From assembly GCA_003971905.1 (NCBI GenBank), contig RSEE01000029.1, positions 434,001-498,000 on the forward strand: a stretch of DNA of 64,000 nt, written 5' to 3'. The notes below the pieces were generated by a model. That model saw only the letters and a program-made list of their open reading frames with translations. It made no database searches and had not been told where the DNA came from. Positions 6,878 to 62,110 of this stretch are shown piece by piece (position 1 is the stretch's first letter; each line of letters begins with the position of its first letter). The position numbers were made by a program, and so were the translations under genes. The stretch comes from Moniliella sp. 'wahieum'. Its lineage: Eukaryota; Basidiomycota; Moniliellomycetes; Moniliellales; Moniliellaceae.

Positions 6878-6918
6878 GTCCTTGGTGACGTGTGACGCGT
6901 GACGCGTGACGCGACGTC
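6878..6918. repeat. Heptamer array (GTGACGC)n with ACGCGT core
   Basis: Four or five copies of GTGACGC, so that the palindrome ACGCGT recurs every 7 bp. The array lies about 50 bp after a TATATAAAA box near 6825. Confidence 0.8.
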
Positions 6919-7995
6919 AAAACATCTGTCAAGAACAAAAGTTTTCGGCAGGCACCGGGACCATGCAACTGCCTGTCCATCGACCATCCAAAGTCATCTA
7001 GTCATTGATAACGATGCATCATATATCATACATCATGCATTGTGTCACCTGTCACCCTCACATGTATTAACATGCCATACCATAGTATGCTATTGATAAT
7101 CTCTCGCCTGGAATGAGATCTGTGGTGTATATCCGATCGGATCTTGTACGGTGCGACTGTGTTATAGACCAGAGAGCAGGCAGTTGGTAGTGTATTGCAT
7201 TGCACATGAGCTGCAGAGTCTAGAGAATCCTACCCGCCAGGAAGGACTATATATTGCACGGAACAAACCAAAAGGTTCTGGACTTGGGCTGCTGGCGCCA
7301 CTACACCAGTGAGGCGTCACATGTCTCAGACTGATGAGATCGACAGATAGGGAGCGGAGTTGGGCGGACTTTGGGGCTCAAAAAAAGGGTACGCAACTGA
7401 TTGCCACACACGTCCAACTTCGATGACGTAGAACGTATTTTGAACGTTAGTGAATGAGAATAAAGCTATAGCTAATCAAGTGCAACGCTGATGCAGGTCA
7501 TGGCGCTGATGCGTACAACGCCCCTGCATAATATAACCGTAGGACATGTATACGTTGAGTATAATCTACGTGTGTGGCCACCGGTCGTTTCCACAGATGA
7601 AGGAGATATAGGGTAGATTCGGTAACGGTCGGAGATAAGCGAAGAGGAGGCAAGCGAAGAAGAGCATGTGCGAGGAAGAGGAATGATATAATGATGCGAG
7701 GAAGAGGCGTGCGAGGAAAAAAAGCAATAAAAGCGGGGAAAGAGGAAACAAAAACAATTGAAGCGGGAGAGGGGAGGAAAAACAAACGAGGAAGATGGCC
7801 GACACTGGGTGTTGGTGGACCCGAGAGAAGTACAATCTCCCTCTTTCTTGTCAATATAGGTACAACAGTCATCCAGTCATAGAGATGTGCGTCGTATCCA
7901 TTCCGATAAATCCCGATTGGCCAAGATGTGTTACATGTTACATGTGAGCCACACAGCGCGTCGTCGCTCTAAAAAAAGCGCCAAGCTTCTCACGT

Positions 7996-8026
7996 TCAAA
8001 AAGTATGAAGCTTCAAGCTTCAAGCT
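7996..8026. repeat. Heptamer array with AAGCTT core
   Basis: Three to four copies of the AAGCTTC heptamer. A shorter copy in the opposite register (TGAAGCTTGAAGCTTGG) lies at about 8331-8347. Confidence 0.75.
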
Positions 8027-9309
8027 TCGCAGTCCAGAGCTAGCAATCGATAGCCCTCTAACTCTTTCTTAGCATCCTCTTTGCTGGCGTCGCTTAAAAA
8101 TATCATTTTTTTGCTGTTGTCATGGAACCCGCCGCCGTACCCCGCCTACGCCCCGCAGCACCCGGCGGGGTATAGGGGGTTGGCAAGGCGGATCCTATTA
8201 TAGCGCACCACCGCGGGCTAAGCACTGACTCGACAACGCGCCTACAAAGTTCACCTGCACGGTCGTCGCCCATAGTGGTGGAGCCAGCACGACAACTCCG
8301 TAGGGTTCATCGATCATCAAGGCATGTTGATGAAGCTTGAAGCTTGGAGCGCAATTGCCCTCTGCTTCGGTTGGAGCAAAGCTGCGTAGCCCTTTTCGTC
8401 TGCGGCTCTGCTGGCTGACCGCTGCAGTGGGGTTACCGGTTATATAAAGAGTGAGATGAGTACTGAGGAGTGGCCTGAGGTCTCTCCAGGAAGGAGACCA
8501 GAGGGATTGAGGCCCTCAGCCTGAGATGCCTAATGCATAATGGGACCGCCGCAGGCCGACGATTCCTGCAAGTATACGCCGTGATCGTCGCCTGCTCTGC
8601 GCAAGTCAGTTGTGCTCCGCAGTTGTAAGCATGGCCTTCAGGCTGATAGATATCCGACCCTGATACTCCGCTTCGCCGCAAGCGCACCTACTGCGGCGCT
8701 CTCGATGCCTGTCTTCAGTAAGCATTGCCCTCCAAAGAGAAAAGCCAGCCAACAGGCGCTTGTGAATATCCGGCGGCCGAAAAGGCAGGCAATTCGCAGC
8801 AACGCCCCGTTATTACCATGTAATGCTACTGGAAACGAAGTTCACTGCGGAAGACCAAGTTCAGTAGCAGCATCCTCCACAGTCTTGCCACAAAACGCTC
8901 GCTGATCTGCCATGTCTTATAGCGCCGATTGCGACAGAGCAACTCCCATTATATACAGGGTCTGTCCCGAGCTTATTTGACTGATCCACCCCCGTTTCCC
9001 GCTCGCTTTTCGCACACCGCACACCGTGGGTGGTGGGCATTACAGCAAATAGGGCCAACGCTCGCTACTATATCGCATCTCGCTCTTCTCCACGCCCGTC
9101 CGTCCGTTTCGGTCACTACTCCTCCCCTCCAACTCCGTACACTGTGGCCATCCTCCCTCTGCTCGGCTCAAGTGCAGTCCAGCCATTTCATTTCAGCCCA
9201 GCCTCGGAAGCCTCTTTTTCCCACCCCCAAATCGGATCTCGCCTAGAAGCCCCGGGACACCGTATACACCACCAGCTTTGTCGCCACCCACGAGCCAACC
9301 TCCGTCATC

Positions 9310-12400: not shown

Positions 12401-12401
12401 T

Positions 12402-12495
12402 GCTTCAAAGGGGAATCGAACCCCTGTCACATCGACGTCTCACAGGCACAGGGCCAGTCTGGCAACGATGTAGTATACCACTAACCCATTGAAGC
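12402..12495 (-). tRNA. tRNA-Gly (anticodon GCC) with a 24-nt intron
   Basis: The - strand folds as a cloverleaf. The acceptor stem GCTTCAA pairs with TTGAAGC (7 bp). The D arm contains AGTGGTA. The anticodon stem CATCG pairs with CGATG, with U33 and anticodon GCC at 12461-12463. The T arm AGGGG-TTCGATT-CCCCT follows a 4-nt variable loop. The loop is interrupted after position 37 by a 24-nt insertion (12436-12459), the canonical place of eukaryotic nuclear tRNA introns. No CCA is encoded. A T8 terminator follows directly. Confidence 0.93.
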
Positions 12496-14904: not shown

Positions 14905-16289
14905 CCGCGGGCCAGCGAGGGAGTGGCCAGGGCCGATCATACGTGCCACTGCGGCGGGGGGCAGAGGAGTGCGAGGCTAGTAGTGTGTGCTGCCCGATGT
15001 GGATCGCTGGCGCCTGGCGTGGCCGAGTGCTCCGAGTCCCGAGTGGGGCTGCGCCCATGCGGAATTTCAAGCGGGTCGCGCAGGCTGGTCAGGTGACCGG
15101 GGGTGGGCTGTGATGAACGTGTGATTCACCATTCGTGCTGGTGGACGCAGGGGATGACGTCAGCACTGTTACTCGCGCCTGCAGGCGTCTGCCGTCTGCG
15201 TGTGTTGGACATACATAGGGTTACGCTTATCCAGTCTCGATTATCTCGAGTATCGTGCATCAGTAATCAGTGCATCAGCCATCAGTGCATCAGCCATCAG
15301 CTGATGGCTCAGCCTGATTGCTGAGCTGAGCCTGAGATGCGTCTGCTTCCACCCTGGTTCGGTTGTGCTCCTGTCCTGTTTGACTGGTGGTAGTTGGTAG
15401 GCACTAGGGAGGAAGATGCAGGATCGATGACGTCGAAGCCGCCGCGGACGCAGACCCAGCGCCCAGCGGTTGCCCCGTGCTAGTACTTACACTGGCCTCG
15501 TGCCTGCGCTCCCTTTGGTCCGCTTTTTTTTTTTACGAAGTTCAGACTTGAAGTTCTGTAGCTTGCTCCATTCCCAGAACCCGCCAGACAGACCCAAGGC
15601 GCAAGCCATCCAATGGCCCACCCGTGTGCCCCCCTTTCACACCAGTGCCCTTTAAGTACCACCCGCACACCCCATAGCGGCAGCCACATGCGCGTCATGA
15701 CGACGCGCATGACGCAACTAGAGTGCTGCCCTCGGCCTCAGCGTCACCGACCATAGCGACCATCGACCATCGCTCATCGATCTATCTGCTTTGCTGCCCA
15801 ATGGCCTCTCACTGCAATGCGGTCATTCATGACGTCGACGCAATCCTCCCTCCTGTTGGGCTCAGCCTAACCCATCCCTCTGTTCTGTGCTCCGGCAGAA
15901 CCCCACTCTGCATCATCGACATCATCGACATCATCGAGCATCATCTTCAAGCAGCCCTCGCATCGTCTCGCACCAATTGCTCTGCGCATCCCCCGCGCGC
16001 ACTGAACGCACACCCCAGCCTCAGGCCTGAGGCTGCGCGCCTGTGCGCACACACTAATGCAGTGCAGTTTTTTGCGTTTTGTGATTAGGGCAATATAATC
16101 CACTTGGGCGCCGCTCAGCCACTCAGCACGCCGCACCCGAAATGGCTTGGATCAAACTCCCCAAATCCATATGCACTCACTGGCACATACCCAGCATACC
16201 CAGCACAGGGTCTCCGCTTCCTCTCCACACACCATCCACCACCTCCCCAATCCTTGCCCCACCAGAAGCCGCCCGGCCGCTCCTGCTCC
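14905..16289. other. Divergent promoter region between DHHC and secreted-protein genes
   Basis: No gene recognised. It contains CATCAG direct repeats and an 18-bp perfect palindrome at 15292-15309, an ATGACG/CGTCAT inverted pair at about 15688-15712 and a CATCGA trinucleotide-like array at about 15913-15945. Poly-T at 15527-15536. Confidence 0.45.
15292..15309. repeat. 18-bp perfect palindrome
   Basis: AGCCATCAGCTGATGGCT equals its own reverse complement, centred on 15300/15301. It follows two direct copies of GTGCATCAGCCATCA and precedes overlapping GCTGAG/CTCAGC elements, so it sits in a region rich in inverted repeats. Confidence 0.85.
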
Positions 16290-23923: not shown

Positions 23924-24519
23924 CTGCGTACTTCCCAGGTCAGATGGGTCTAGGAACTAGCAGTAGAGCTGGTGGGTTGGTTGCCGCTATGAGGTTTCGC
24001 TATTCCAAAAAAAAAACTGTCGTGGGGCTGAGAGCGGAATTAGGATTCCGCTTTCCATCTATCTGCTAGTTGATGCGTTGATGTGATAAGCGCTCAGGCT
24101 GAGCACAGCTCAGCAGGAGCTGTCTGGAGGAAAGAAGGCGGGGAGCAGGCCCTGTGGACGAGTATATATCGCGGAGGGAAGACAAACAAGAATTGCAAAG
24201 GAGGGAAGATCCTCACAGCAGATCAAGCGCATGGAAGGGACGGAGAGGGGAGAGGGGAGAAGATGAGAGGAGGGAAGGGAAGGAGAGGAAAGGAAAGGAA
24301 AGGAAAGGAGAGGGGAGGGGAAGTCCTCACGTCCTCGCCCGGGCAGAGGGTGAGGTGAGGGAATAAGCACAGTCCATTAGCCAAGGCGTTGCCATCCACA
24401 GAGGCCGCTCACGGGTCTGCCTGGAGCGTAGCTGAGCGTCTGCTAAGCACCAGCAGCCGCTTTCCAAAATGAAGGACCGAGCCCCACGTACCACAGCATC
24501 CATAGCGAGCGTCCAGGAC
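23924..24519. other. Spacer upstream of the Air-like gene
   Basis: Contains an A9 run at about 24006, GCTGAG/CTCAGC elements and a purine-rich microsatellite (24240-24320). No gene seen. It separates the Air-like promoter from the 3' end of the PP1-targeting gene. Confidence 0.45.
24238..24318. repeat. Purine-rich AAAGG/GAGGG microsatellite
   Basis: Degenerate GGGAGA copies followed by about six copies of AAAGG. The same AAAGG unit recurs in the Erg25 intron. Confidence 0.8.
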
Positions 24520-40529: not shown

Positions 40530-40553
40530 TCGTCACGCGTCACGCGTCACAGG
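40530..40553. repeat. Heptamer array (ACGCGTC)n
   Basis: Three copies with the palindrome ACGCGT every 7 bp. Confidence 0.8.
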
Positions 40554-40616
40554 TATCATGTATCACACGGCGGTTATGTCAACAGATGTCACATGTCACA
40601 ACTGTCAAGCATGTCA

Positions 40617-40752: not shown

Positions 40753-41561
40753 GATATAAGAACTTGAGCGCGTCACCACGGACTCAACAGTTCAGCGGGA
40801 CAGCGTTCAGTAAACGTTCCAACTCTTCCGTACACTCAGTACTCAATGTACTCGATCCTCAGTGTCACAGCGTCACACGTCAATATTTACTCAAATCCGT
40901 GGTGATTACTCCTGTACCTGTCGGGTGGCGGCTTGGCATGGCCGAGAATGCATCGATAAAATTTGAAATTGAGTATCTATGAAGAAGATAGGGCAAGCAG
41001 CAAGAGCTGAGAGCCACTGCTGAGTGCTGAGCCGGTCGAGAACTGGCTCAGCTGGCACGCCCGCCAGGTCGTAGGATAAAAAATGGGACACACCCGACGG
41101 GACGCAGCGAGGCTGGCTGGCCGTGGCTGCGTCAGCGTCACAGCGTACCGGGCGCGTACCAGGTACCAAGCGGGCAGGGGTAAGTCCAAGTGTGGTCGGA
41201 AACCGCATAGGTAGCCGTACTCAAGGTAAACTAGTAACCGGCAGACTTGGTTGCTGCTTCTGGTGGCGAGAACTACCTCGGGGGCGGCAGGGGTTGCAGT
41301 AGCTGCTGTCTAGTGCCGCACCAAGTGCGCCCGCACAGCGCCCGCACGGCGCCCCACTCAGCCCACCCGGCGCGGCAGCAGCGACCCTGGCCTGGCGGCC
41401 TAAAAGGCTGCAGGCATGGCGCCTGTGTGTCAGTGGCGGGCGGAATCAGAATCTCCTGGTTTTAATGAGCAAAAACGTACCTTGAAGCTTCAAGCTTCAG
41501 TGCAGACGGCAGCGTCTTTCTTTCTTTCATTGCCGTTCCGCCTTTCAACCGCCCTGGCGTG

Positions 41562-41600
41562 CCACCACCACCACCACCACCACCACCACCACCCACCCAC
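41562..41600. repeat. CAC trinucleotide array before the GATA start
   Basis: About 12 CAC triplets immediately upstream of the ATG, in the 5' leader, preceded at 41484-41500 by an AAGCTT heptamer pair. Confidence 0.85.
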
Positions 41601-43127: not shown

Positions 43128-45393
43128 TGTGGCAAACTAGTACAAAGACATTCATGCATATTGTCATGACGACATTCTCAGTAGAATAGATCTAGAGCGA
43201 CGCATACGGCATGATTGTCGAAACACCTAGTCTCGGGAAGAGGTGGTGATGGCGAGGACACGATGGTAGCAGTCCTGGGTTTACGAGGCAAAAAAGATGG
43301 TGCATCTTGGAGCCCCCCCCCACCACCACAGGCCTATAGTCTCAGAATGATTAATCGAGATTAGATGTCGTTGCAGTAATCCGGCTACAGGAACACAGGC
43401 TTGGAAGCTGTCGCATCGAATATATGCAAAGATCCATAGAACCAATACCTTGGTACATGCCCGCTGAGGATGATAGTCGAACATATTCCCACCCTTGGAA
43501 GGGGAGGTTGGGGATGGGTTGTAGGCTTTATGCAACGTATTGAATGAACTATAAAACATTCTGGTGCCCTAATGGTATCAAACTATCGAGATCCTTGTTC
43601 TGTTGATTCAAATGTCCCCCTTCCGCCCCACAAAAGAGTTCAAGTTGCAACGTAAGGGTTCCAAGAAGCGCTAGTATAGGAAGAATTCCAAGATAGAGAG
43701 GTCATTTGTTGCCAGTGTTTCCTAGATGCAAGAAAGACAATAACCTGTGATCTAGGGTTATCAACAAACTAAAGACCTGAAGTTGCTATCGACTTGGTGA
43801 ATCAACACGCGGATCATATGGTTTGCATCGTACGCTTTTCAATAGTGCCGGACGCTCCAGGAAGCGTCCTCAGCGCTAGAGCCGGCTTCACAACTAATGC
43901 ATTCCCTTCGGATCATCACTGATGTCTTTAACGATGAATTAAGCAATGAAAGGGGGAGATCCGTATACAGGCCCGCATCGTCGGTCACTGAAATACCGTC
44001 GTGTTGGCATCAGGTTCTCCTGGCCAATATAACCACGGACGGGTACTGGACGAGTTCCACTACTACGCTCTCTCCGAGGTGGAAGCGGATTCTACTACGA
44101 GAATTTCGTGGTTAGTCCTCATCCTGGAGGCCTATCCAACAATGATTTCGGCATACTGGGATCACTTGTAAGACTTTTGCAGTTATCTTACAGTAGGAGC
44201 TATAGCCGACTCAATTATATCGGTGTGATGGCTCAAGCAGCTAGGCGCCGAGGGGGTGTAGGAGGGGAGTGAAGCGCCACAACGAAGGATATAGACAAAA
44301 TGAGGCGTCGCAAGCAAGAACGGACGCACGGACTTATATGTGGCAAAAGGCAGCAGGGTCGCTGGCTGAGGAAGTATAGCAACATGTCTGTTGATGATTG
44401 CACATATGGCGACGGAGAAGAGTGGCAAGAGAAGAGGACCGGATACGAGACCTGGAAGAGCAACGAGGGGTGAATAACAGTTCCCGGTGATCCAAGGAGA
44501 GGAGCAGCGAGGGCCACAGAAACTGTGAAAAGGCTATACAGAGACTCAAAAGTCAGAAGATGCGCCTAGGAGAAAATGATGTTGCCTTCATCCGGTTAGT
44601 TGAATGAAAACCCTCCGTCATAAGGAAACCCCCATACGGCCACAGAGTTCTAAAAGAACACTAGCGCAAATAGAGAAAGAAAGGGAGGAAGGAATGGAAC
44701 CCGAACTTACAGGGGTGAGTTCCTCGTGCAGAAGAAGCCACGAACAAACAGTCGGGATACTCATAGTTTCTCTGGAGGGAAAAGCGCGCTAGATATGAAA
44801 AATGCTAGGGGATACGACGGGCCATCGCTCTCCTGTTTCCAGGAGGAATACGTGAGGTATATTTTCACACATTCCTCCATCGAGCAGGGTGCCGATTGAC
44901 GAGTGATTGGGCTCAGGTAGCAATCACAGGAGTGAATTAATAGTGGGTTTCGTTGAGATCAGGCCTCATGACAGGAGAGGAATAGTGGAAGTCAATAAAA
45001 TGGGCAACGACTAGGCAAACGAGGCATATAGACTTAACCGCCTGGTTAGCCATACAGTCCGTCTTCGTTTGCAATAGATGAGGGGACGCAGACAACGCGA
45101 CAACGGGTGTTGCGTTGCTCGTTCAGTATGTACTGCACATACTTCTTCATGCATGCACCATGCACTCCCACAGTTGAGATGAGAATACAAGTCTCACGAA
45201 TGTAGACGTGCCTATGTGAACCAGCCTTGGTATATCGCAATCGGCAATGAATCCGAAGCCATACCATAGATGCCACATTTTACTACCACCAAGATTGTAA
45301 ACGCTAATACTGGAAAGCTTTTTGATCAACAGAGGACTGTGGCTGAAGATGAGATTCTCGGTGCACAGTTCTCTCATATCATTCACGGTCTCA

Positions 45394-45436
45394 CAGATGA
45401 TCGATGATCGATGATCTGAGATCTGATCGATGTGGG
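45394..45436. repeat. Heptamer arrays with ATCGAT and AGATCT cores
   Basis: Three copies of GATCGAT run directly into GAGATCT and ATCGATG; a second short GAGATCT array lies at about 45560-45582. Confidence 0.8.
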
Positions 45437-46268
45437 TCATCATTCAGCAAGGTCTATACCGCCCACGCCTCCATCCCTTGTTGCGCATCCCAGCGCTCCC
45501 AGCCTTCTCTCTCGTTTCCGAGCCATCACATCGTAGGAAGACAGTGCCTGGTATTCGGGTCTGAGATCTGAGATCTGATAACTGACATCTCTATCAACGA
45601 ATTGTGCACACATATAGTTTGCCATTAAAACCTCTCATTTCGGGTGGAACGCCGATACACGTCACATAATAACTCCTTAGTATATGAATGGCTTCTCATG
45701 TTCTCTTCCGTCGCTCATCGAGCTCATCAATGCATTGTGTGTGTGGGTGAACATCTGTGCTCGAAACTGTTTAACAGTTCGACGGCGGGCGGGTGTATAC
45801 ATGTGTACACATCTTCGCGCACCCGTTTTCACATCGTGCGTTATGTACGCCATACTAAGTACAAACGCGTTAAGCGCTTTAGCGCCAAGTACTAAGGAGA
45901 GTCTTTTGTTTGTTGGGACAACGGGGCGATATCAACTGTGAATGAAATGACAGTTCAAAAATACAGAAGAGAGACAGGACAGAAGGCCAAGTCAGTATGG
46001 CGTAAGAGCTTATGCCTTGGACCCTCCACCCCATAAACAAGAGCTCATAACGAGTGCATCGCGTACAGCTCTCCCAAGTTCATTCATGCCATCATTCACG
46101 AACCAGTTCGATCAAAAAGGCCACTTTTTGGTGTATTAGCCAGACGTGACGCCCTCTGTTGGCTTCCCTTTCATCGCTTGCTTGGACGCTTTCAGATCTT
46201 CATATCTCACCTCTCACCGATCACCTGCTCTCCCTTCCTCTCCCAGGGCGGACACCCCCGCTGTGCGA

Positions 46269-46284
46269 TTAGGGTTAGGGTTAA
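46269..46284. repeat. Interstitial telomere-like TTAGGG motif
   Basis: Two perfect TTAGGG units followed by TTA. Too short to be a telomere; possibly a chance match or a repair or insertion scar. Confidence 0.5.
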
Positions 46285-46667
46285 TTCACACTCGCCAGGT
46301 CGCATGATGCCTGTGACCATACGTCTCTCGTACAGCCTGGTGCTCTGAGAACATGGGAACACCTGAACGGCCGGAATGAACGTTGAACGCCTGGCCGGTC
46401 GGTGAGCGGTCGGGGGCGGAGAGCGTTCAAGACGTTCAAGTTGAACGATGGTAGACCGAAACCCACAGTAAATCGCGTTCAAAGAAAGCGAACGAACACG
46501 TGGCGACCATCCACCAGCACGATCCTGAGATGATGCTATCGGAGCTTAGATGTGAGACCTGGTTCAGGGCCAAAGTTCATATCACACACTGCTCATCGCA
46601 TCATGCATCATGAGTACATGAGTGCATGAGTAGTGTCCGTAGGCCTGCAGTCGTTCTCTGCCTGGTC

Positions 46668-46712
46668 CCGGTCAAGCTTCAAGCTTCAAGCTTCAAGCTT
46701 GACCCGGTCGAA
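46668..46712. repeat. Palindromic AAGCTT heptamer array
   Basis: Four AAGCTT cores at 7-bp spacing flanked by CCGGTC on the left and GACCCGG on the right, so that the whole element is close to an inverted repeat and could extrude a cruciform. ACGCGTA heptamers follow at 46727-46745. Confidence 0.85.
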
Positions 46713-47057
46713 TTGCAGACGTTCGCGTAACGCGTAACGCTTCAACGCGTCCAACGCATCCACACCTCACCATCTCACACCACGCTGGTGAGCGCTTGCG
46801 CGCACCCACGGCATCACCGTCAGCATGGCGGACTTAGCGCTCAGGCCCAGGTGAGGCCGTCTCGGGCTGGCAGGCTTAGCGCTAGTCAGCCTGACTGGCT
46901 CAGCTGAGCGCGCTCAACCCGTCAGCGCGTCAGCTGACGCTAGTGAGTTCGGCACGTCTAAGAGCGTTCACAAACGTTTCACATTCAACGTTCAACCAGC
47001 GTTCAATGTGCACTCGCCTCAAGCTTCAAGCTTCACTAGTTCACTCTTCCTCCCTAG

Positions 47058-47100
47058 CTCTAGTTACTAGTTACTAGTCACTAGTCACTACTAGTCACTT
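47058..47100. repeat. Heptamer array with ACTAGT core
   Basis: About six ACTAGT cores with one spacer base (T or C); two more occur at about 47397-47409. Confidence 0.85.
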
Positions 47101-47929
47101 CTGAGCAGATCTGAGATCTCGCATGTGACATGTATATGACAGCTGGATGACATAGTGGCACAGTCTGGCGCTGCGCGACTGAGTACTGGGCGCTGACATC
47201 GTGTGGCAACTGTAACGTGGAACATGGAACACATGTAGCACATGCAATAGAGCGACGCGGCACCTCGTCACCGCCACCGCCTCCCTGTCCCAGTGACGCG
47301 GAGACGGGTCGCCGGTCGAGGTCCCGGAGACTTGCCGGGACATGCCTCGGTAACGCGGAGACAGGCGGGTCGCCGGTCGCCGGACACACTGCCGCAGTCA
47401 CTAGTCACTTCTGCAGCGCAGACGCCTTAACCGACTCAACCCGAAGGCAGCCTAACGGCCAACGACCAACGTCCATCGGAGAAATACGGTCGAAAGCAAA
47501 CAGGATCAAGAATGGGCCGAGTATCATGCACATGCGCTATGATTCAACCACCACAATAGGGATTCGATGCTACGTGTGGAGTATCAAGGGAGGGAGAAGG
47601 GGAGCAATCGTTCGTGCACGAAATTTTTTTATTCCAGTAAAAATAGTGTGTTCGAAAAGAGAGAAGTGAAAGCATGAGTGCGAGTTAAGAAGGAAAGGCT
47701 CCAGGGCAACGAAGGAGCAGAGTTATATGGTCCGATGAGCGCGATGAAAGGGGGCACACAATGAGGAGAGAGAAACATGGACCTGGAGACTAGACGAGCG
47801 ACCAGGGGGTATAATGGAAAGAGAACCGTACGCGAGACGGTAAAGAGTGAAAGACGATGCGTGCGAGCTGCGCGAAGAGAAGGAAGAGAGGGGTTCATCG
47901 TTTAACCCAAAGATGTGTAGGAAGCAAGC

Positions 47930-49380
47930 TCAGGAATACGGCATACGACTGGAAAACCAGCGCGAACCAAGGTCCAGGCCCTCAACCGAAGCCAGGGTGG
48001 GCTTGGACCATGACGAAGACGGGTGGACTCCATTTTCGTATTCGCCCTGTGCCAAAGGGGTGTGCACATACCCCCCCTCGACCAAGGGAGACGAAGAGGC
48101 AATGGTCAGAGTGGGCGTTAGTGCACTTTCCTTGCCCGTCAAGGGAGTATCGCACCCGTCTGTGCCATCGCCCCGCATCACTTTCCCGTCGGTCGAGGGC
48201 AGGTTGCAGAGCGCCTGGGCTTGAGCCAAGGCGTGGGCATACAAGCGCGAGTTGAGACGAGGCGCGTAGGGTTCGGGGCAGACTGGGACACGGACAGGCT
48301 GGGCGGGCGAGAGGCAATCCCCTCAGGGCGTTGTAGGCGTAGTGGGGAGGATGAAGAACGAGTAGAACGAGTACTGTGAGAATGGGAAACGGTGCGCGGT
48401 GAAGGTTGAATCGAAGAGCGGACGGTACGGGAAGAAAAGTTACTAGACTGATTCTCTGAGGGTGCGATTTGGTGGGCAGTCAGAGCGGACGGGGCCACGG
48501 GCGGGCGCAGGTGCGGTCTGTTGGGCGTCGGTATTAGGACCAGGAGTGGGGATATAGAGGGCTTCTTGAACCCGATTTTGCTCAAGTAAGGCAGCAAAGG
48601 ACAAGAGTGACTCGTGCTGGACGTTGACGCGGTATCCGAGGAAGCCAAACAGCTCCTGCTCCATCATGTTGATGTCGCGTAGGGTGAAGAGACCCTGGCC
48701 AACGATGGTCCAAGATTTGTTGGAGTAGGTGTCGTCGCAACTGGCCTTGCTGGCCAGCATGAGAGCCGAAATGAACAGACGATGACCGCTTCCGCGCGAG
48801 GGGGGAAGCGCAGCTTGAGCCGCTTGAGCAAGTAAAGCGCCTGGTATATGACAATGGTGGGGAGGCGAGTACGGTGGAGAGCATAGGCGATAAACTGGAG
48901 CAGCGGTTTGTGCTGACCACTGGAGGGACTGCTGCTAGAGCGCGGGCGCCCGTGGATGCGGCGGGGGAGACGGGAGGGTGCTAGGGCAGGAGAAGAGGGC
49001 CATGACAACTTGTTGACACACATGGGCATATCTGGGGCGTGTTAGTCAAGAAGGCGAGTGTGTCAGTCTCTGGCGCATGCTCATTAAGCCCATGTGGGCG
49101 CGTCAGATCTCAGACCCCGCAGGTGCTGGGGAGGATGCAACGGCGGGCGGAGGTTGTGAGTCAGAGACGTACCATCAAAGCCGTACAGGTTGAGGGAGGG
49201 GGCGGGAGGAGCGGAGACGGGGGCGTGGGCCGCGGGGGCGATGGACGGGCCGTGGGTGCTGGCGCGCGGCCTTGTGGGTGGGATGGAGACATGTGGGACA
49301 GAGAGGGGCAGGAGGTGTGGGGGGGTGGTGGGGAACGGGAGCAAAAGCGAGTGGGATCGGAGCTTAACATATACGTTTGC
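47930..49380 (-). CDS. Pcl1/Pcl2-type cyclin (Pho85 cyclin family)
   Basis: The cyclin box reads HKPLLQFIAYALHRT, TIVIYQALYLLKRLKLRFPP, then GHRLFISALMLASKASCDD, NKSWTIVGQGLF and INMMEQELFGFLGYRVNV (about 48920-48640). The NKSW and the MEQELFxxLxYxV run are typical of fungal Pcl1/Pcl2 cyclins, which activate the Pho85-type CDK in G1 and polarity control. The two halves of the box lie in different frames: one C is missing in the run complementary to 48800-48805. A probable intron runs from GTACGT near 49173 to a CAG near 49028, joining SLNLYGFD to MPMCVNKLSW. The N terminus is Pro/Ser-rich with ATG at 49380 preferred; the C terminus is Ser-rich and extends to 47930 after further frame changes near 48500 and 48245. 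Earlier stops at 48443 or 48178 are alternatives. Confidence 0.8.
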
Positions 49381-49642
49381 GTCAACGACGGGTGCGTCGG
49401 TGAGTCGCAGGACGGAGGAGGGGTGCGCTGCTGCGAGCGGCAGCGTAGTCAGCAAGGCAGCATAGCCACACCAGGCCACTCTTGTCCGCCACTGCCTGCC
49501 ACTGCCCGCCACTGCCACATCCCAACCATCGGCCAACGCCGGAACGGAGAGAGCGTGGATGCAGGGCCCTAGTGGGACCACCTCATCGATCATCCATGGT
49601 CGATGATCTGCAATTAGTGATCGGTGACCAAGTGACTGCTCG

Positions 49643-49800
49643 CCGGTCACCGGTCACCGGTCTTACCTACTGGACTGGTACGAGTCGATGGATTGTTCGG
49701 AGCAGCGAGGAGGTGGCGTGTGACACGTGACACGTGACGATGTGCGTAGGACATGCATGATGTGGCCGGCACGGGTGACCGGTGACCGGTGACCACTGCT
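49643..49800. repeat. Three adjacent heptamer arrays (GGTCACC, CACGTG core, GGTGACC)
   Basis: CGGTCAC at 49643-49662, ACACGTG at 49717-49738 and GGTGACC at 49774-49796. The first and third are reverse complements of each other across about 110 bp. Confidence 0.85.
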
Positions 49801-51405
49801 GCCCGGTCACAGGGACGCCGCCGTGGGGGTTGGCGGCATGCTGGGACAAGGCAGCGGGTGGGCAGGGTTCGGTGGGCAGGAGGGGATGCCTCTTGTCCCC
49901 TGTGCTCCCGGGTCCTTGCTCAATCATGAATCAACGACATTAATCATCGACATCAGCCAGTAACTAATCAATCATCGATATCGATCATCGCGTTAGGAAG
50001 GCTTAGGATCCCTTTGAACCGCCCCCTGCCACCCCTCATTTTGGCGTCCGGAAAGGGTTCTGAGAGGGAGAGACCACAGATGGAATCCGAGAGTGCTCGG
50101 CCGCTCAGCGTCAGTTGGAACACAGCAGTAGGCCGCGTACCCGCGGTACATCATTATGTGCGCCAACGAGTCTGCCGCCCGCGTCCCGTCTCGCCATTTT
50201 TTTTGCGATGGCATTCCAATGCAACGCCAGATTCGCGACCTGTGGGTCTAGGAGCTGTGCATAAGCGCCAAGCAAAGAGCCCTGGCAGTTGGGGTTGGGA
50301 AGATTGCCACGCCTCTCGGCTCTAATTCTAAGGCCTGAGGCTGAGGCCTCACGCGTGACGCCTAACGTCAAATACTCCAGAGCAGTGGCCAGTGAGTACT
50401 AAGTTCACGCGTCACGTGTCACGCTCAATATCCAACGTTCAATTCAGCTGGTGTGGCTTCGGAGGTCCTGGAAACAGGGTTCAACGTCGGCGAGCCGCGG
50501 CTGGGCTGAGCCGCTGAGCCCTGGACGTGGCCCCCGAGCGCCTGAGCGCCTGAGCCGCTGAGCGGTGGCTACGCGCTCTGATCCTCAGGAAACTGAAGAC
50601 TGAAGGCGACAAGCGCCGACCGGCTGTACATTCAGCAGAACTTGGAACGTTGAACGTTGAACAGTTGAATCAACGCTAGGGCAGTCAGGAAGGTGTTGCG
50701 GGATGCGATGGAACGTGGACCCGAGGCTGATACAGGTACCATGGCCCGGAGGGCCATGCATCCGCACGACAATAGTCCCCCCCCCACTCAAGTCCAAGGG
50801 GGTGGCCAAATAAGGCCATCGAGCTTCCGTATCGTTGTTGTGACGACTGCCGCCTCTGTCCCCGTTTCCTTTTCCTTTTCCCGGTTGCGACCGGTAACCG
50901 GGGTAACCCCAACAGACCCATCTAGTATACGGAGCAATTCATCAATGCAAAAGTACATCAATTCAAAACACAAGTGCAAGTTCAATACCAGTGCGTGCCC
51001 GGAATAACTATAGTAACTAGCCACTTGAACATGTAAACAGTGACTAGAGTGAATAGAATAACTATGTACGTAGTGGCACCCTTGGGAAACTCGGGGAATT
51101 ATATTAACACAAGTTGGCAAACCTAGCACGAGTGCAGTGCTAGCCAAGTCTCAGGATCTCAGGCTAGCTGTGCTGGTGCCGGGGTCCTCCCATGATCATG
51201 TTCTCACTGTCCCCCCCCCCCCACCCCTTCCCCACGTTGTGACGTGTTGCATGTTGCATTGACATGTTAGCATGAAAGTATCTTAGATCTTAGCCCACCT
51301 GGCGGAAAAGGGCGGCACAAAGGATAGGCGCCCGCTTCAGGTCCTTCAGGGTTCAGGAGTTTCTGAGCCCCACAGGACCTCAGAACCTCCACTTGAGGCT
51401 GCGAG

Positions 51406-51434
51406 CTTGAAGCTTGAAGCTTGAAGCTTGAGGC
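51406..51434. repeat. Heptamer array (AAGCTTG)n
   Basis: Four AAGCTTG units, opposite register to the arrays at 7996 and 46668. Confidence 0.85.
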
Positions 51435-52737
51435 TGGTTCACGTTCAAGTTCAAAAGCTTAGTGTCGAGTCTCCCATTTATCTATGCACTCGGATGCTCT
51501 CGACGCGTAAAACATGAAATCGCGTAATCGAGTAACTAGTAATCGACCTAATCGAAAATCGGCAATCGATGAAAATCCAATAATCGCCAATCTAGTACTT
51601 GATCATCGATTATCGGTTCCATTTAAGTTGTACATTTAAAACCCAACAAGTCAATCTGAGACTGGGCGAAGCGGTTAAGCGTTAAGCCTTAGGCACGTTA
51701 ACGTGTAAAAGCGGCAAGGCCGGTAACCAGTAATGGTCGCGTGGATCGAAGAATGGGGAGGAACGAGGCTTCTCACCGGTTGGCATGACCCGCATTGCCC
51801 TCATGACCCTACACGCCCAGACGCCCCCCACGCCACCACAACCTGCCACAACAGACCTCTAACAGTAGACCTGAAAACTAAAGGCCTATAACAAGTAATT
51901 GTCAACCTCGCATTACTATAATGTGCAAATGGGTGGGCTCTATTGGACTAAGAAGCTCCTGCGACTGAATTGTCCCTGCGAGCTCGGATGGACGGAAGAG
52001 CTTTTTGAAATGACACAGGGTCCACACACAGCTGATGGGATGGATGCCAACACAATAACTCATCGTATCCGCTCGTGCTACATCTGAGCGAAGGCGGGGA
52101 AGGTGTCACCACGGGTCACTAGCCACTAGTCAAAGGACCCCGAACACTTCCTGGGGTCTCCACATTGTGGTCTCATAGTTCGGTTGGCACATCGTTTACA
52201 GAGTTTGACGTTGAGGCTGTGGGGCAAAGAAGCGCTGCGCTTAGCCGATCGGTAGAGTTACAGTTCTGTAAAATCTATAAAGGCCAACAGAACAAGGTTG
52301 CAAAAAGGTTACCGACTCAAGCAACAGTTTTATTAAGCTGAGAAGGGAAAGAAAGGACCCACATCAACAGGAACCTCTACAATTAATCAGCTTCTCCGCG
52401 CTCTGAGATATCAGCTCAGGTCAAAGAGCCTATCATATATCAGCCCGCCGGGGTCGAAGATCGAGCCTTGGCGCAAAGGGGTCGGTCCGTCGGCCGAACC
52501 ACTCTTTTGGAGACGAGCCTCGAACATATAACGACTCAGTGTTAATAACGAGTTGAACTCTCAAAAGCCGGGCGAGAGAAGAGACAGGCAAGGGTCGAAC
52601 ACAGAGGGGGGTGCACCGTTGACGGGCCCGAAGAGCCCTCTCAGCCACATCGTGGTGTATGGTATGGATCAACAGGGGAAAGAGTGCAGGAGAGAACCCT
52701 GAAGCACTACCCTGTCACCGCATTGTTGTGAGAACCC

Positions 52738-52770
52738 TTACCGGTTACCGGTTACCGGCTATACCGGTTG
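52738..52770. repeat. Heptamer array (GGTTACC)n
   Basis: Three copies of the odd palindrome GGTTACC, then a CCGGTATAGCCGG-like inverted piece. Confidence 0.85.
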
Positions 52771-53163
52771 CCAAAACAGTCTTTGTCCAAGTGAGACGAG
52801 CTCCAAAAAGTCACAATGGAGAATGTCGAATGCATATACCAGCTGCCCTCTCGTTCGGCGCGCTTGCGGGAACGCCTTGGAACGGGTCTACCATTGCTTG
52901 CACCCCTGAAGAGGCTCTGAAGCCGAGGCCAGTGATGCATGATGTAGGAGGATATAGGCCTGATATCGATAATCGATAATGGTTGGTGAATGATGCACGA
53001 GACGGGTGACGTATTCAGGGTCTTGAATACCAACACCTGGACATGTCTCTGATCGCTGCAGCCATGTCGACTTGAAATACCCGTGGACCCGTGAACGGCT
53101 GTGCACCCGAAGGAAGATCGGTTCCGAAGACAGCTGCTCTGTGCACAGATGGATGGGGGAAAG

Positions 53164-53222
53164 TCTTAGGCCTTAGGCCCCTTGGGGCTTAGGCGCTTAA
53201 GCCTAGGTCTTAGGCCTTTGGC
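53164..53222. repeat. AGGCCT-rich inverted repeat cluster
   Basis: Overlapping copies of CTTAGGC and GCCTAAG, including CCCCTTGGGG and CTTAAGCCTAGG, so most of the 58 bp can pair with itself. Confidence 0.75.
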
Positions 53223-53625
53223 CACTTATAAGCCCTGAAGCTAGCGCTGAAGACCCTAAAAGGCTTTTTTTATAAGCTTGACGGAGAGCTTCGGCCGGCG
53301 CTTAGCGCTTACTACGGCTTCAGTGTTGTTACAAATATTGTTACAAAACTCCCTTATACAAGTCACTCTGTCACACCACTGTACAGCCTGCAGCTCAGCC
53401 CTCTCTCGGTACACACATTCCATAGTCTGCTAGTAGTGATTACTATAGTTCAGGTACCCATGACAGGTGCTTAGAACTCATTAGTTGAGTGACTTTCTCA
53501 GTACAGAGTCTCAGTACTACTGATACTCGGTATACTCAGTTGAGTTCACGCGTTCACACGACTTCCAATGCAATCATGTTCCTTCAACACGTTCAACAAT
53601 TTTCAACGCGTTATACGTCCAATAT

Positions 53626-53668
53626 CCAAGCTTCAAGCTTCAAGGCAACCTTCAAGCTTCAACACGTC
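53626..53668. repeat. AAGCTT heptamer array
   Basis: Two AAGCTT cores at 7-bp spacing and a third after CAACCTTC, next to AACGTTCA pieces. Confidence 0.75.
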
Positions 53669-53893
53669 AACGTTCAGATCGACCGTTGAGACGCTGTGAC
53701 TTTTGTCGTTGTTGCCTGCGTCCAGTACAGTTGTGGCAGGCGAGCTTGTCGTGACCGAGAGCGCGAAACTAACGCCTTTCGCCGTCTAAAACTGTTGGTA
53801 AAGCTCACTAGCCCCTACAAAGACCAGGTCCGGTAGAGAGTCCACGGATGCAAAGCGTTGGAACAATAACGTTGTTCGGTGAAATGCGCCCTC

Positions 53894-54830
53894 TCAGCAT
53901 CCATAAAGCGAACTGAGTACCAACAACACCATCCTTAATATGAGCCAACTGGACTGCTGTAGAGGTTCCAACACGCGTCTGTCCAAGGTCCCGGCTGTAT
54001 CCGTATGATGCCTGGTCAAAAAGACAGACACAACAAGAGTGGCCGGGGCTACGCCACGCCAGATAGGTACTACATCAAAGTTACACCCACCATCAGGAAT
54101 CCGGTAGCCAAGGGAGTCCAGCACCTTTCCGCGAACTATGCTGAAGTCAGTCCCGCAGGGGGTGGTGAGCAAAGTGCAAAACTTGCTCCACTACCGCGGT
54201 GGCATATCGCTAATAAAGTGAGCAAACCCTGAGTCACCGACAGCCGTGCGCCAGCGCAAAGTTAGTTCAGTGTTGGCACGTCCACATGGAGCAGTGCCTC
54301 GGGGGTGGCTAATAGAAAGTTGAACCCCTCACCAACACCGGAAAGGGCAGCCGACTCGTTGTTCATGTTACTGCGAATGGCGGGCCCATTGGGGCCAAAC
54401 GAAGAAGCAACAGGAAGGCGAGCATAGCACACCAGGATCATTCTTCTGACCAGGGTCGCAGGTTCAGGGTGAAGGGTCGCGTGCGTCGTGTGTCGGCAGG
54501 GTGGCGTGGAGCGCGGCCTGACCAGGGGGCGTGGAGCGCGGCCTGACCGGGGGGCGCAGCCTGGAAGAGAATCCTGGCTTGGGCGGACGGGCGCCATGGG
54601 CGCGGGTGGCGCGGGGGGTACCGTATTCCCGGAAGCCGGAGCTGGGCCAGACCATGTTCCATCTGGATGAGGCGCTCGTGGAACGCGTTCCGCATCTCGG
54701 TCTCCGATAGGTAGTGAAGGTCTCCACCTGGGTAGCCAGCAACCCGTCACAGTCACACCAGCCGTTTTCCATTCGGATTCTCTTTCTACTATCCATTGAT
54801 TGTGTGGATGTGCACACCCATCTCGGCATA
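53894..54830 (-). CDS. Candidate gene remnant, unknown
   Basis: Three protein-like pieces on the - strand: MRNAFHERLIQMEHGLAQL (from about 54695), NNESAALSGVGEGFNFLLA ending HVDVPTLN with a stop at 54262, and VLDSLGYRIPDGGCNFDVV through GVAPATLVVSVFL (54172-53894). They need introns or frame changes to join. A 25-bp direct duplication (54503-54552) lies in the middle. No family recognised. Confidence 0.25.
54503..54552. repeat. 25-bp direct tandem duplication
   Basis: Two adjacent copies of GGCGTGGAGCGCGGCCTGAC plus a G run; the period of 25 is not a multiple of three, so it would shift a reading frame. Confidence 0.85.
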
Positions 54831-58151: not shown

Positions 58152-59395
58152 GGCAGGCAGAGACGGACCAGCTGGCGGGACACACAGGCGGGTGGTGGGG
58201 CTTAGCTTTATACGAGGTGATGCGATATGCGCCCGCGTGCGTCGCTTCCGGGGTTACAAACAGGCGAGGCGTGTGGCAGCTGGAGGGCCCAAGCCCAGCC
58301 GGCGGCAGGCGAAGAACGGGGGCGGGATGATCGATGAGCGCTGGGGCGACCGGTGATGGTGCTGGCATTTGACCTTGGGCAGCGCACGCCGGCCGATCTG
58401 ATGCCAGGCAGCCGCACGGGGCCAGTGTGGCGCGCTGCCACCAAATGACTGAGCAGGCCCCCTCTGCCCCCGTGCCCCAGCGCACGCGCGCGCCAGCGCG
58501 CCGCTGCTGTCTTGGGTTAGTAGTTACTCAACCTTAGTTCGCGCCTCTGCGGCCTGCTGCCTCGGCGCACCCGACACTGCCCCCCGGCGGAGCGTCCCAC
58601 GCCGTTTCCACGCGACACGTGATGCATAGATGGGCGTAAGCGCGTAAGGCCTACCGGCGCCGGGCGGCACAGATGATTAAGGAGCCCAGGATGATTGGTT
58701 TGATCTAGCCGCATGAAACGTTCAACCCAAGCCCCGCGCTGGTCGCTCCCAGCACCAACCAGATCCCCATCGGATAGATCTTCGATTGTTCAACGTTCAC
58801 TAGTCACTAGTCACTTGCTTGCGGGCCGCGCCTTGGTTGCCATACGGCAAACCAGGTCGCCGTTAAGGAGGGGGGGGACGGCAGAGCCACTCTGCCACCC
58901 CTGCTCGGGGATTGAAAAGATACCTCGTGTCCGGTGGCTGCTGCAGCGATCCTGGCATCGCAACAGCGGCCAGCGCAACACACATACGCGACCATCCATA
59001 TGGTGCATGCCCACCGTACCGATCGTATCAGCGCCCCAATGCAGTTACCAGGATGCCAGACAGAACCAATTCCGCATCCGAAACTCGATGCCGCCCACAA
59101 CTCAAAAAGGGGGGGACGGCATCAAGTACCAACGTTCGCCGTTCGCCGTTCAACGTATCAACCCCTCTCCCACAACAAAGTAACTACGACTTTAGATACC
59201 ACCCACCCGCTTGCCACCAAACGCAGAGAGAAAGGCCGACGGCCCCAGATGATGCGATTTTGGGGTGGGACAAGCTGCCTATCGCGGTCAGGGCGTAGCA
59301 GAACCCTAACAGAGGGGCGCAACCACATGCGCGGGGGCAAGAGAAGCACGCAGGACGGTCAAGCACCCAGGACCGCCGAGGGAAGCGGAAACATC
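58152..59395. other. Spacer between Erg25 start and uL14 end
   Basis: Contains the Erg25 promoter. An ACTAGT heptamer array lies at 58797-58816 and a CGTTCGC array at about 59133-59156. No further gene recognised. Confidence 0.5.
58797..58816. repeat. Heptamer array with ACTAGT core
   Basis: Two to three CACTAGT units next to a TTCAACGTTCA element. Confidence 0.8.
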
Positions 59396-59898: not shown

Positions 59899-60923
59899 GG
59901 TTACGAGTCTGGACACAATGGAAAAGCGGTCAGCTGGCTGTCCAGCACATGTGTCGTTGATGCGACAACAAAAAAAGGAGAGGAAAGGCGGGCTAGCGTC
60001 GCTGCGTCCTGGCGCGGACGCAAGGCCACCTTACAGGGGACGATCGGCTTACCTTGCTGGTTGGCGAGCGAAAGGGGACGGCCACTGCAACCCACGAAGC
60101 AGGGATGGGGGGGGAGGCGCTGGCGACAACCCTATCTGCACCCTCCTTGTTCTCCTCGGCAACGGGAGGGACCTAGGGCTGGTCGACTGGCGCAGCGCCC
60201 AGGCAGCTTACGCCTTGCTGCGGTAGCTTCCTCCCGTGCAACCCTAGGTCGATCAAACGGAACCCAGTACTCACGACGTACTCACGCGTCACCGGAACGA
60301 TCACAGTTTTGTGAAACTTTCCTCCCAGTCGATGCTGCAAGCGGAATGCTTTGATGGGCCTGCCGTTCCGTCCATCGGTCAGAGTTACGACGGAATGGAA
60401 CCAGGGGGCGAGATCGGTGCAAACGTGTGCACGCCCGCGGCGACATGTGGCATGTGAATGTGACATACATGTGATGTATAGCGTGTGATGTAGGACACAT
60501 GATGCATGATGGGTGTGTGACTGGGCCCGTGCGGGGTGCTTGGAAAGGGGAAGCGGGAAGCAGGAGGGGCCACGGGGAGTGTGCGTGTCGCGCCCGAGCG
60601 ACGGCGGGGCACCAGCGCACTTTGGTGTCCCGCCCAGCAGCGCCCAGCAGCGCCCAACGCCCCCGTCGGACCAAGGGAGCGTGTGGTGGCGCGTGGTGGC
60701 GCCCACGGGGCCTCAGCCCCAGGGTGGGCGCCCAGCCTGGGCCAAAGGCCTCAAACTCAATCGCAGCTTAGGCTTAGCGGTTAGTTAGCTAGCTTACCCG
60801 CCCGCCGATCCCCTCGGGTCCGCCCTGTCGCTCCTGGTTTTGCTGCTCTGCTCTTCCATCTCATCTCCTCTCTCTCTCTCTCCTCCCCGCCCTCACCTTC
60901 AGCCCCCCCCTCCACCAGACAAA
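59899..60923. promoter_or_regulatory. Divergent promoter between uL14 and BAR genes
   Basis: About 1 kb between two divergent starts. The left part contains the probable 5'-leader intron of uL14 (59909-60052). A CT-rich tract (60838-60905) directly precedes the BAR start, as is common in fungal core promoters. CATGTGACAT-like inverted pieces occur at 60440-60510. Confidence 0.55.
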
Positions 60924-62052
60924 ATGGACTCGTGGAAGACATTCACCAGCAGCCTGTCCGACGCGGCCGCGAGTGCAGCGGCGAGTGCGGCGCCCGTGGG
61001 CACGCGGCTGAGCAAACAATTTGGGCACTTATCGCAGCAAGCGCGGGAGCGGTTGGGTGCGGTAGACCCGTCGGACCTAACGGAACTTCCGAGCGAGTAC
61101 CGGGCTCTGGAAGCGCGCGTCGATGGACTACGATCGGCCCATGCGACCTTGGTGCGCGTACTCAAAGTGTACCAGACGGAAGGGTACGATTGTCCTGTTA
61201 GCATCCAAGACTCGGTGAGCGATGCGTCGCGCTCGGTGGTGCAGACTGTTGGTGCTTGGACTGCCCAAGCACGCGGGGTAGCTGCGCCCACACTTCCTCT
61301 GACCCGGCTGTCCGACGTACGTTGGCCCATACGCTTTCGCGCGCCATGGCCAGTGCAGCGGTGGAGGTGGGCCCAAGTCCCAGTCGACGGGTGCGAGTGG
61401 GGTGCCAAGTGAGCCAAGTGACCAGGGGGAAACGGGATCGGCGTTGGCTGCAGCGTTGCGTTCGGTGAGCGTGGCGAGCAACAGTGGGTCAAGCGCGGTT
61501 GCACCAAGATGGAGAGATTCAGGAGAAAGTCAGTGCGCCATGGGTGGCGTTTGGCAAGCAGATTCAGTTGGCTGTCCAGGCACGTGGGGAGGTGCAGGAG
61601 GCACGGTTGACGTTGGATGCGGTCAAGCAGACGCTGAAGAGTGTCGAAGTGCAAGCGGGACAAGGTACGGAGGGGGACAAGGTGCAGCATGCGCGAGCGG
61701 AGGTGGAACGTGCGGAGGATGTGTTGGTGGCTGCACCGAGCAAGCGATTGGACTGATGAAGAATGTGTTGGAAAACCCCGAGCCGATCCGGATGCTGGCG
61801 TTGTTGGTTAAGACGTACGTTTGGTTCCTGATTTGCTACGAGCAAAGCGCGATGGAGGGCAGGTACTGATACAATCTTTCTCTTCTTCTCTTCTCTTCTC
61901 TTCTCTTCTCTTCTCTTCTTCTCTTCTCTCTCTTCGACTGCAGCCAAGCCGAGTACCACCGCACCGCAGCCGAGGCGCTCGACACGGCGTTCACCCAAGT
62001 TTCGGCGGATGCGCGGGGGGTGGAGGAGACGTTCCGTGCGAGTCGGGTGTGA
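60924..62052 (+). CDS. Gvp36-like BAR-domain protein (frame-broken)
   Basis: The start MDSWKTFTSSLSDAA, then RERLGAVDPSDLTELPSEY, LEARVDGLRSAHATLV and KVYQTEGYDCPVSIQDS match the N terminus of fungal Gvp36-type BAR proteins. Farther on are QDGEIQEKVSAPWVAFGKQI, ARLTLDAVKQTLK, EVERAEDVLVAA, MKNVLENPEPIRMLALLVK and, after the intron, QAEYHRTAAEALDTAF. The BAR dimer senses or shapes curved Golgi and endosomal membranes. The intron at 61815-61943 (GTACGT; CTGCAG) has the right phase. Frame changes are needed near 61300, 61400, 61480 and at about 61735 (one missing base in GCACCG). The stop TGA is 62050-62052, running straight into an AAGCTTG heptamer array. With frames restored the length is about 330 residues, normal for the family. 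Confidence 0.8.
61876..61932. repeat. TTCTC microsatellite in BAR-gene intron
   Basis: About ten copies of CTTCT/TTCTC forming the pyrimidine tract before the branch site (TCGACTGCAG). Confidence 0.9.
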
Positions 62053-62110
62053 AGCTTGAAGCTTGAAGCTTGAAGGTGATAGCAGGATGCATGAAACGTG
62101 AAACGTGAAG
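62051..62110. repeat. AAGCTTG and AAACGTG heptamer arrays after the BAR stop
   Basis: Three to four AAGCTTG units (62051-62075) and two AAACGTG units (62094-62108). The first begins within the BAR stop codon region, so it lies in the 3' untranslated region. Confidence 0.85.

Follow-up and report, generated by a model that had tools for sequence, protein, structure and literature searches.

Palindromic heptamer repeats of Moniliella sp. 'wahieum' as probable excision footprints of a cut-and-paste DNA transposon

Several described DNA transposons mark their target sites with short duplications or palindromic insertions. The excision footprints of Ac/Ds in Candida albicans are reported to carry insertions of palindromic (P) nucleotides, and the same paper cites studies of budding yeast and Arabidopsis as well as the Artemis-related hairpin nuclease Pso2 (PMC5873905). 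TcBuster is described with complementary inserts at its footprints and with 8-bp duplications of the form nnnTAnnn (PMC3499496). In fungi, 7-bp target duplications are given for hAT7 of the rusts Puccinia and Melampsora, and also for Kyakuja (KDZ) of Laccaria/Agaricomycotina, which is presented with 5'-CA..TG-3' ends and as lacking terminal inverted repeats (PMC12730594), while some hAT families are tagged '7-bp TSD' (target site duplication) in Repbase (PMC4455052). Here we examined a 64-kb stretch of contig C29 of the basidiomycete Moniliella sp. 'wahieum' (RSEE01000029.1, positions 434,001 to 498,000; hereafter the window), in which many short tandem arrays repeat a palindromic 7-bp unit. 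We read these palindromic heptamers as excision footprints of a cut-and-paste DNA transposon, a reading to which we assign a probability of about 0.82.

The genome comprises 69.5 Mb in 223 contigs. Our statistics are based on 294 kb (0.4% of the genome), consisting of the window, its two adjacent 10-kb pieces and 21 other 10-kb pieces, supplemented by pattern counts over the whole genome; counts refer to the 294 kb where no other scope is given. The expected number of period-7 runs was taken from 10 order-3 Markov simulations of the 294 kb. We write the 7-bp target as abTNAcd, bases complementary to its ends or to the bases xy as d'c' and y'x', and the other 15 possible centres as zNw.

The TNA-centred unit and its junctions

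An initial annotation of the window had pointed to many sites whose 7-bp unit is a 6-bp palindrome plus one base, and the counts bear this out: 27 of the 41 exact period-7 runs of at least 16 bp in the window have this form, as do 22 of 33 runs of at least 17 bp. At other periods, palindrome-bearing runs in the window were absent or few (0 of 24 at period 6, 0 of 3 at period 8, 0 of 2 at period 9 and 3 of 21 at period 5); the larger shares at periods 2 and 3 (12 of 66 and 17 of 40, respectively) are explained by the ease with which a 2-bp palindrome arises by chance. Twenty 10-kb pieces from arbitrary positions held 31 period-7 runs of at least 17 bp, of which 16 were palindromic; thus, the window is not special in kind and the pattern is genomic.

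The enrichment was confined to palindromes that begin with A and end with T. Runs of such A....T palindromes of at least 16 bp numbered 51 (0.0 in the simulations), compared with 1, 0 and 0 palindromic runs starting with C, G and T, respectively, and pairs of identical palindromes spaced 7 bp apart followed the same division (A 69, C 1, G 2, T 0). Non-palindromic period-7 runs of at least 16 bp were also in excess (41, against 0.9 simulated). The annotation's expectation that palindromic 7-mers exceed other units therefore holds for the 294 kb against simulations, rather than on a full genome scan. Genome-wide, the pattern AAGCTTNAAGCTTNAAGCTT, in which three copies of AAGCTT are separated by one free base, occurred 1081 times, while its reversed palindrome TTCGAA gave 0; the ATGCAT version occurred 508 times and its reversed control TACGTA 0 times. 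Since only the A....T class is enriched, the constant part of the unit is a TNA every 7 bp, with a free self-complementary 4-mer in between. In total, 13 of the 16 possible A....T palindromes were found in runs of at least 16 bp.

The core of the series is not an array. Its commonest form is a single 12-mer, TNAxy-y'x'-TNAxy, with 277 strand matches against 1.0 expected. Breaking any one of its nine constraints lowered the ratio from 277 to 5–18, the same design at the 15 other zNw centres gave 3–26 matches each, and TNA repeats with a non-complementary middle showed no enrichment over other centres. The 12-mer uses 15 of the 16 A....T palindromes, only xy = AT being missing. We found 232 sites in which two TNA triplets with the same N enclose a self-complementary 4-mer: 59 of them were extended by exactly 2 bases and on one side only, 11 had no extension, 4 had two bases on each side, and the rest were extended otherwise or further. 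The flanks of the 59 isolated 12-mers were unremarkable.

Further spacings revealed the length of the repeated unit. Besides the 12-mer we found TNAxy-y'x'-b-TNAxy and TNAxy-y'x'-ab-TNAxy, in which b or ab often repeat the bases before the first TNA. All of these read as duplications of the 7-bp sequence abTNAcd, with one or two bases at the junction that complement the end next to them; the duplication length is fixed, and a spacing of 8 or 9 bp is 7 bp plus one or two inserted bases. Where nnTNAnn repeats lie 8 bp apart, the inserted base complements a flanking base in 20 of 21 cases, and at a distance of 9 bp 23 of the 27 two-base inserts match one end in reverse complement (both are hand counts and include a few overlapping matches of one locus). 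Two candidate explanations were dropped at this point: a 5-bp duplication TNAcd, our first idea, was replaced by 7 bp after the results at spacings 8 and 9, and a requirement that the target itself be palindromic found no support, with only 1 of the 21 and 5 of the 27 repeats being palindromic.

Among strictly maximal 7-bp repeats, complementary inserts were present in 11 of 12 (one base) and 6 of 7 (two bases) with a TNA centre, and in 13 of 32 and 9 of 52, respectively, with other centres. Repeats of 8–10 bp had no excess of complementary inserts, those of 6 bp had them in 65 of 131 (one base) and 12 of 83 (two bases), and those of 5 bp with a two-base insert in 85 of 293, the 12-mers themselves being part of this last class.

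We extended the test to the whole genome with three 7-mers picked before searching (CCTGATG, GTTGACC and GATCACT, the last already met in the spacing lists), each followed by 0–5 free bases and a second copy. Among the resulting 272 rows, a one-base insert was the predicted complement in 69 of 72 (chance 1/2), and a two-base insert was one of the two predicted among 16 dinucleotides in 60 of 95 (chance 1/8; 9 of 15, 36 of 51 and 15 of 29 by 7-mer, the last for GTTGACC). After matches within 60 bp of another were dropped, with repeats on homologous contigs kept, the figures were 59 of 62 and 57 of 88, respectively. Three to five bases separated the copies in 35 rows. As a control for the centre, CCTGATG had 100 matches and its ANT-centred reversal 1. 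The reversal of GATCACT was void as a control, being itself an array unit (618 + 594 matches).

Excision, array growth and competing explanations

Five pairs of sampled loci were homologous contigs, 91–96% identical over about 3 kb (C8/C23, C37/C92, C20/C22, C57/C67 and C5/C27), and parts of the assembly seem to be present as two haplotypes or as duplicated segments. Two more pairs, C58/C60 and C15/C26, were linked by common rare matches only. The aligned pairs gave footprint and empty states of the same site: ACTGACG-CG-TGACG and GGTGATT-AA-TGATT in L037 stand opposite ACTGACG and GGTGATT in L032, CGTCA-CG-CGTCACA in L034 opposite TGTCACA in L031 (amid a series of units of this kind), and GTTGAGG-GTTGAGG, a duplication of 7 bp with nothing inserted, in L029 opposite a single GTTGAGG in L028. 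Junctions with complementary bases between homologues occurred at four TNA targets and at none in the 15 other classes; two of the four are clean, one lies within an array and one is accompanied by several other differences. Pure duplications between homologues were found nine times at TNA, and also in 11 other classes. Of the seven exact 7-bp indels in the five pairs, five read as footprints, one of these with a mismatch, and two do not. For window positions 44001–54000 we found no full-length homologous contig, only matches of 36–490 bp among the best 38 of 312 candidates. Apart from these differences, L031 carries a 356-bp insertion relative to L034; its ends are TG..CA and its duplication is the 5-bp AGCTG, with no 7-bp duplication visible.

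The scar, its 7-bp length and its TNA centre are observed; the insertion, the hairpins and the identity of the transposase we infer from the footprints and from hAT chemistry. In hAT excision the flanking chromosome ends are left as hairpins, off-centre opening of which yields P nucleotides before end joining seals the break. Here, an element would insert at nnTNAnn and duplicate 7 bp, giving abTNAcd-[element]-abTNAcd, and its transposase would then excise it and leave the flanking ends as hairpins. Host nucleases may open these mostly 1–2 bases past the apex, leaving P nucleotides on one end, while the other end would be trimmed by 0–2 bases before end joining; the joined product is what we see in the sequence. 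The predicted products are abTNAcd + d'c' followed by TNAcd (+7), bTNAcd (+8) or abTNAcd (+9) on the right, and their mirror images. The +7 product arises when d'c' is added to one end and ab is lost from the other; it thus contains the 6-bp palindrome A-cd-d'c'-T which, with one base between copies, makes up the 7-bp unit. These footprints, being nearly two copies of a 7-, 8- or 9-bp unit, could then grow into arrays by slippage, by re-insertion and excision, or by both, and the arrays are probably footprints multiplied later in one of these ways. The earlier suggestion that a single palindrome-making process lies behind unrelated sequences of common period and symmetry is upheld by these results.

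That suggestion had included hairpin or replication slippage as a cause. Hairpins are probably involved, though the data point to the hairpin-capped ends of transposon excision rather than to slippage during replication. Slippage alone, in which hairpins on the nascent strand expand palindromic 7-mers with no transposon, has length in its favour: perfect arrays reach 40 bp, and 33 of 186 palindromic A-class runs are at least 19 bp long, versus 13 of 482 non-palindromic period-7 runs, many of the latter chance. An 8-bp unit, GATCACT-C, is present in eight copies at G000:C61:166457–166519 as an expanded form of the 7-bp duplication with a single complementary base, which favours slippage as the growth step. 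Runs of 12, 19 and 26 bp most often share ends, which fits growth by whole units through slippage or re-insertion alike. However, simple slippage predicts no preference for A....T over the reversed twin, an expectation that failed at 1081 to 0 for AAGCTT/TTCGAA and 508 to 0 for ATGCAT/TACGTA. Nor does it predict the restriction to period 7 and TNA, the one-sided extension by two bases at 59 of 232 sites, or the complementary inserts where non-palindromic 7-mers recur at spacings of 8 and 9 bp. These inserts already contradict it as a sole cause, a role that we consider very unlikely; it may well act afterwards, as the step by which arrays grow.

Several observations weigh against excision footprints. 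The first group concerns the repeats themselves: GTTGACC had 84 matches and its reversed ANT control, not empty, had 33; 35 of the 95 two-base inserts break the rule (14 of 29 for GTTGACC); and TNA repeats at spacing 9 are only a little more numerous than those of other centres (27, with a mean of 20.9 for the others), so that at this spacing it is the insert, rather than the number of repeats, that sets TNA apart. Plain duplications of 7 bp with nothing inserted are also frequent (70 of 272 rows) and fit clean rejoining as well as ordinary duplication. Indels of 6, 7, 8, 9 and 10 bp between homologues number 3, 7, 3, 4 and 6, a slight excess at 7 bp, and long perfect arrays such as the eight copies of GATCACT-C would need the additional growth step.

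The second group concerns the element. No element was found between 7-bp nnTNAnn duplications in the 294 kb by scans for inverted repeats, miniature inverted-repeat transposable elements and end motifs, or among the indels of the five homologous contig pairs. Over the whole genome, the hAT profiles PF05699 and PF14372 gave 0 matches, neither matching in control genomes, the KDZ profile PF18758 gave 0 with its control also silent, and the MULE profile PF10551 gave 0, with matches in three control genomes. The RVT_1 profile had 71 matches over the genome. In the 294 kb we identified 28 YARNG-ended candidates with a 7-bp duplication, none with a TNA centre, and CA..TG between nnTNAnn repeats was not enriched (28 against 40 expected). 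Of the 131 long open reading frames (ORFs) without overlap in the sampled DNA, 60 were compared with Pfam, and no transposase was among the 25 families listed of 30. An inverted-repeat candidate in L025 with a 6-bp duplication turned out to be two inverted AAGCTTC arrays. Furthermore, about 31,000 footprints per genome, the number extrapolated below, is a very large number if the element behind them has escaped notice. Given enough time, a handful of highly active copies could produce numerous footprints, and a low copy number is therefore no contradiction.

As no element was found, an enzyme acting without an element, perhaps a domesticated transposase, could also be proposed: 7-bp staggered, hairpin-capped breaks at TNA followed by repair would leave the same footprints, and the comparisons of footprints with empty sites reveal the end state only. 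We regard this as unlikely, because insertion and excision of the hAT type yield the duplication and the flanking hairpins in two known steps, and we know of no enzyme that makes both at an empty site. A broader proposal, to our mind rather unlikely, is that an enzyme without a resident element (a domesticated or element-poor transposase) has reshaped the intergenic DNA through hairpin-ended breaks at nnTNAnn, in their tens of thousands, and that such breaks are the main birthplace of heptamer microsatellites.

Distribution of footprints and neighbouring repeats

Our catalogue of footprints, which covers all forms except pure duplications of non-palindromic 7-mers, holds 69 sites in the window and 194 in the 294 kb, compared with 9 in the same sequence reversed. 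When the window and the two pieces next to it are set aside, the remaining 210 kb contain 95 sites, which extrapolates to about 31,000 per genome. Density was 0.05 per kb within ORFs of at least 300 amino acids (aa; defined stop to stop and used as a proxy for genes) and 0.67 per kb outside, and the placement of the sites away from coding sequence noted previously holds broadly (3 of 160 lie wholly inside such ORFs). Of the window's 69 catalogued sites, 34 fall in the 8.3 kb of 45396–53662, which is several times denser than the rest.

Dyad symmetry, the location outside long ORFs and the clustering at 45–54 kb of the window would all suit clusters of binding sites for dimeric proteins kept by selection, as the initial annotation had also proposed. 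This we consider extremely improbable: the use of 15 of 16 A....T palindromes in the 12-mer and 13 of 16 in runs would require many proteins, some of the sites are 7-bp insertions in one homologue where the other has an intact empty site, and a low density in long ORFs is expected of any frame-shifting insertion.

The sites given in the following are 39 of the 69 catalogued in the window plus one CACGTG run, with strand unassigned. In its first part we identified a 7+P2+7 footprint (7-mer, two complementary bases, 7-mer) AATCAGA-TC-AATCAGA, whose insert is the reverse complement of GA (6154–6169), a minimal footprint around TCA-GCGC-TCA (6401–6413), an AGGCCT + A run (6481–6496), and period-7 arrays of ACGCGT + G (6892–6913), ACATGT + T (7929–7945) and AAGCTT + C (8008–8028). 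Two minimal 12-mers, TCATC-GA-TCATC (8307–8318) and GGTTA-CC-GGTTA (8431–8442), lie on either side of an AAGCTT + G run (8331–8346). Arrays of AAGCTT + C recur at 46672–46700 (29 bp) and 53627–53644, and those of AAGCTT + G at 51404–51431 (28 bp) and 62050–62075 (26 bp). A short AAGCTT + C run (41485–41499) is found just upstream of a GTG-started GATA zinc finger ORF (41559–43127).

The other A....T palindromes form arrays of AACGTT + A (30530–30557, 28 bp), ATCGAT + T (40381–40400), ACGCGT + C (40531–40550), AGATCT + G (45560–45578), ACGCGT + A (46724–46740), ACCGGT + C (49643–49662), ACCGGT + G, or GGTGACC (49774–49794), AACGTT + G (50645–50662) and ACCGGT + T, or GGTTACC (52738–52758), together with an ACATGT + C run (40586–40600). 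Several are compound: an ATCGAT + G array runs into an AGATCT + G run (45396–45426), an AAGCTT + C run is followed by the footprint TCACT-AG-T-TCACT (47019–47045), the spacer base of an ACTAGT array changes from T to C (47060–47090), and an AACGTT footprint adjoins an ACTAGT + C array (58788–58815). The palindromes first listed for the window thus stand as an A....T family, with the exception of CACGTG + A (49720–49738), a plain 7-bp tandem of CGTGACA in TNA phase that is outside the palindromic series.

Relatives with 8- and 9-bp units were also present. We found a repeated CATCATC-GA, that is, a 7-mer plus two complementary bases (15911–15935), a compound array that mixes 7-bp and 9-bp (CTTCAAG-AG) units (40619–40679), and an ATGCAT run joined to the 8-bp units CATGAGT-A and CATGAGT-G (46598–46631; the 8-bp stretch at 46609–46632). 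Two-copy footprints with one complementary base (7+P1+7) are GTTGATG-C-GTTGATG (24069–24083), GCTGAGC-C-GCTGAGC (50505–50519), CCTGAGC-G-CCTGAGC (50541–50555) and TCTCAGG-A-TCTCAGG (51149–51163), and those with two are AATGAGG-TT-AATGAGG (39041–39056), GCTCATC-GA-GCTCATC (45713–45728), GTTCAAG-AC-GTTCAAG (46425–46440) and GGTAACC-GG-GGTAACC (50893–50908).

Other repeats accompany these sites. A dispersed family of about 850 bp, with ends TGTCACGGGC...GCCCGTGACA and 5-bp duplications (AGAGC, TCCAA), has copies at L010:8975–9828, L015:414–1281 and L009:9273–10000 and a fragment at window 50736–50889. Among the best 40 of 596 candidates, 38 of the 42 matches listed span the full 854 bp (one being the query); the non-query full-length matches are 91–98% identical, and some occur in pairs 2.4 kb apart. 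The family probably consists of solo long terminal repeats (LTRs) and short LTR elements, and we rejected it as the source of the footprints, given its 5-bp duplications and no visible 7-bp duplication. A dispersed repeat of about 230 bp (window 30694–30916 and 37888–38126; also in L008 and L016, and shorter in L014 and L024) has no inverted ends and no visible 7-bp duplication, and is possibly a short interspersed nuclear element. The window also contains a tRNA on the minus strand (12401–12495; Rfam 54.3 bits), missed by ARAGORN with bacterial settings and probably intron-bearing because it is 95 bp long. Zn2Cys6 domains were present among the ORFs.

Relation to known systems

Excision footprints are usually studied singly, locus by locus, in reporter assays. 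A genome that seems to hold about 30,000 of them would make target preference, duplication length, the position of hairpin opening and end trimming readable as statistics, which could perhaps help to date transposition after the loss of an element. It also gives a concrete origin for palindromic microsatellites that repeat and motif finders would label as satellites or protein-binding sites. Among the top-ranked results of our literature searches, mostly titles and abstract openings, we recognised no published account of palindromic heptamers derived from footprints.

The closest likeness is to the hAT footprints of Ac/Ds and TcBuster as described, whose junctions likewise show small deletions and bases that complement one end, features attributed there to hairpins on the flanks and subsequent end joining. 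Unlike TcBuster, for which 8 bp and nnnTAnnn are given, the duplication here is of 7 bp and centred on TNA, and unlike both systems there are, by extrapolation, tens of thousands of sites and no element was found. The 7-bp target duplication is shared with hAT7, which is described from its elements, whereas here the hAT profiles gave 0 matches (with silent controls). It is also shared with Kyakuja, for which the KDZ profile gave 0 (control silent) and CA..TG was not enriched; a lack of terminal inverted repeats like that described for Kyakuja would explain why the inverted-repeat scans failed. Finally, the perfect head-to-tail 7-bp arrays resemble heptanucleotide microsatellites, but unlike those of random slippage they start from a palindromic junction that follows one fixed scheme and already holds two copies.

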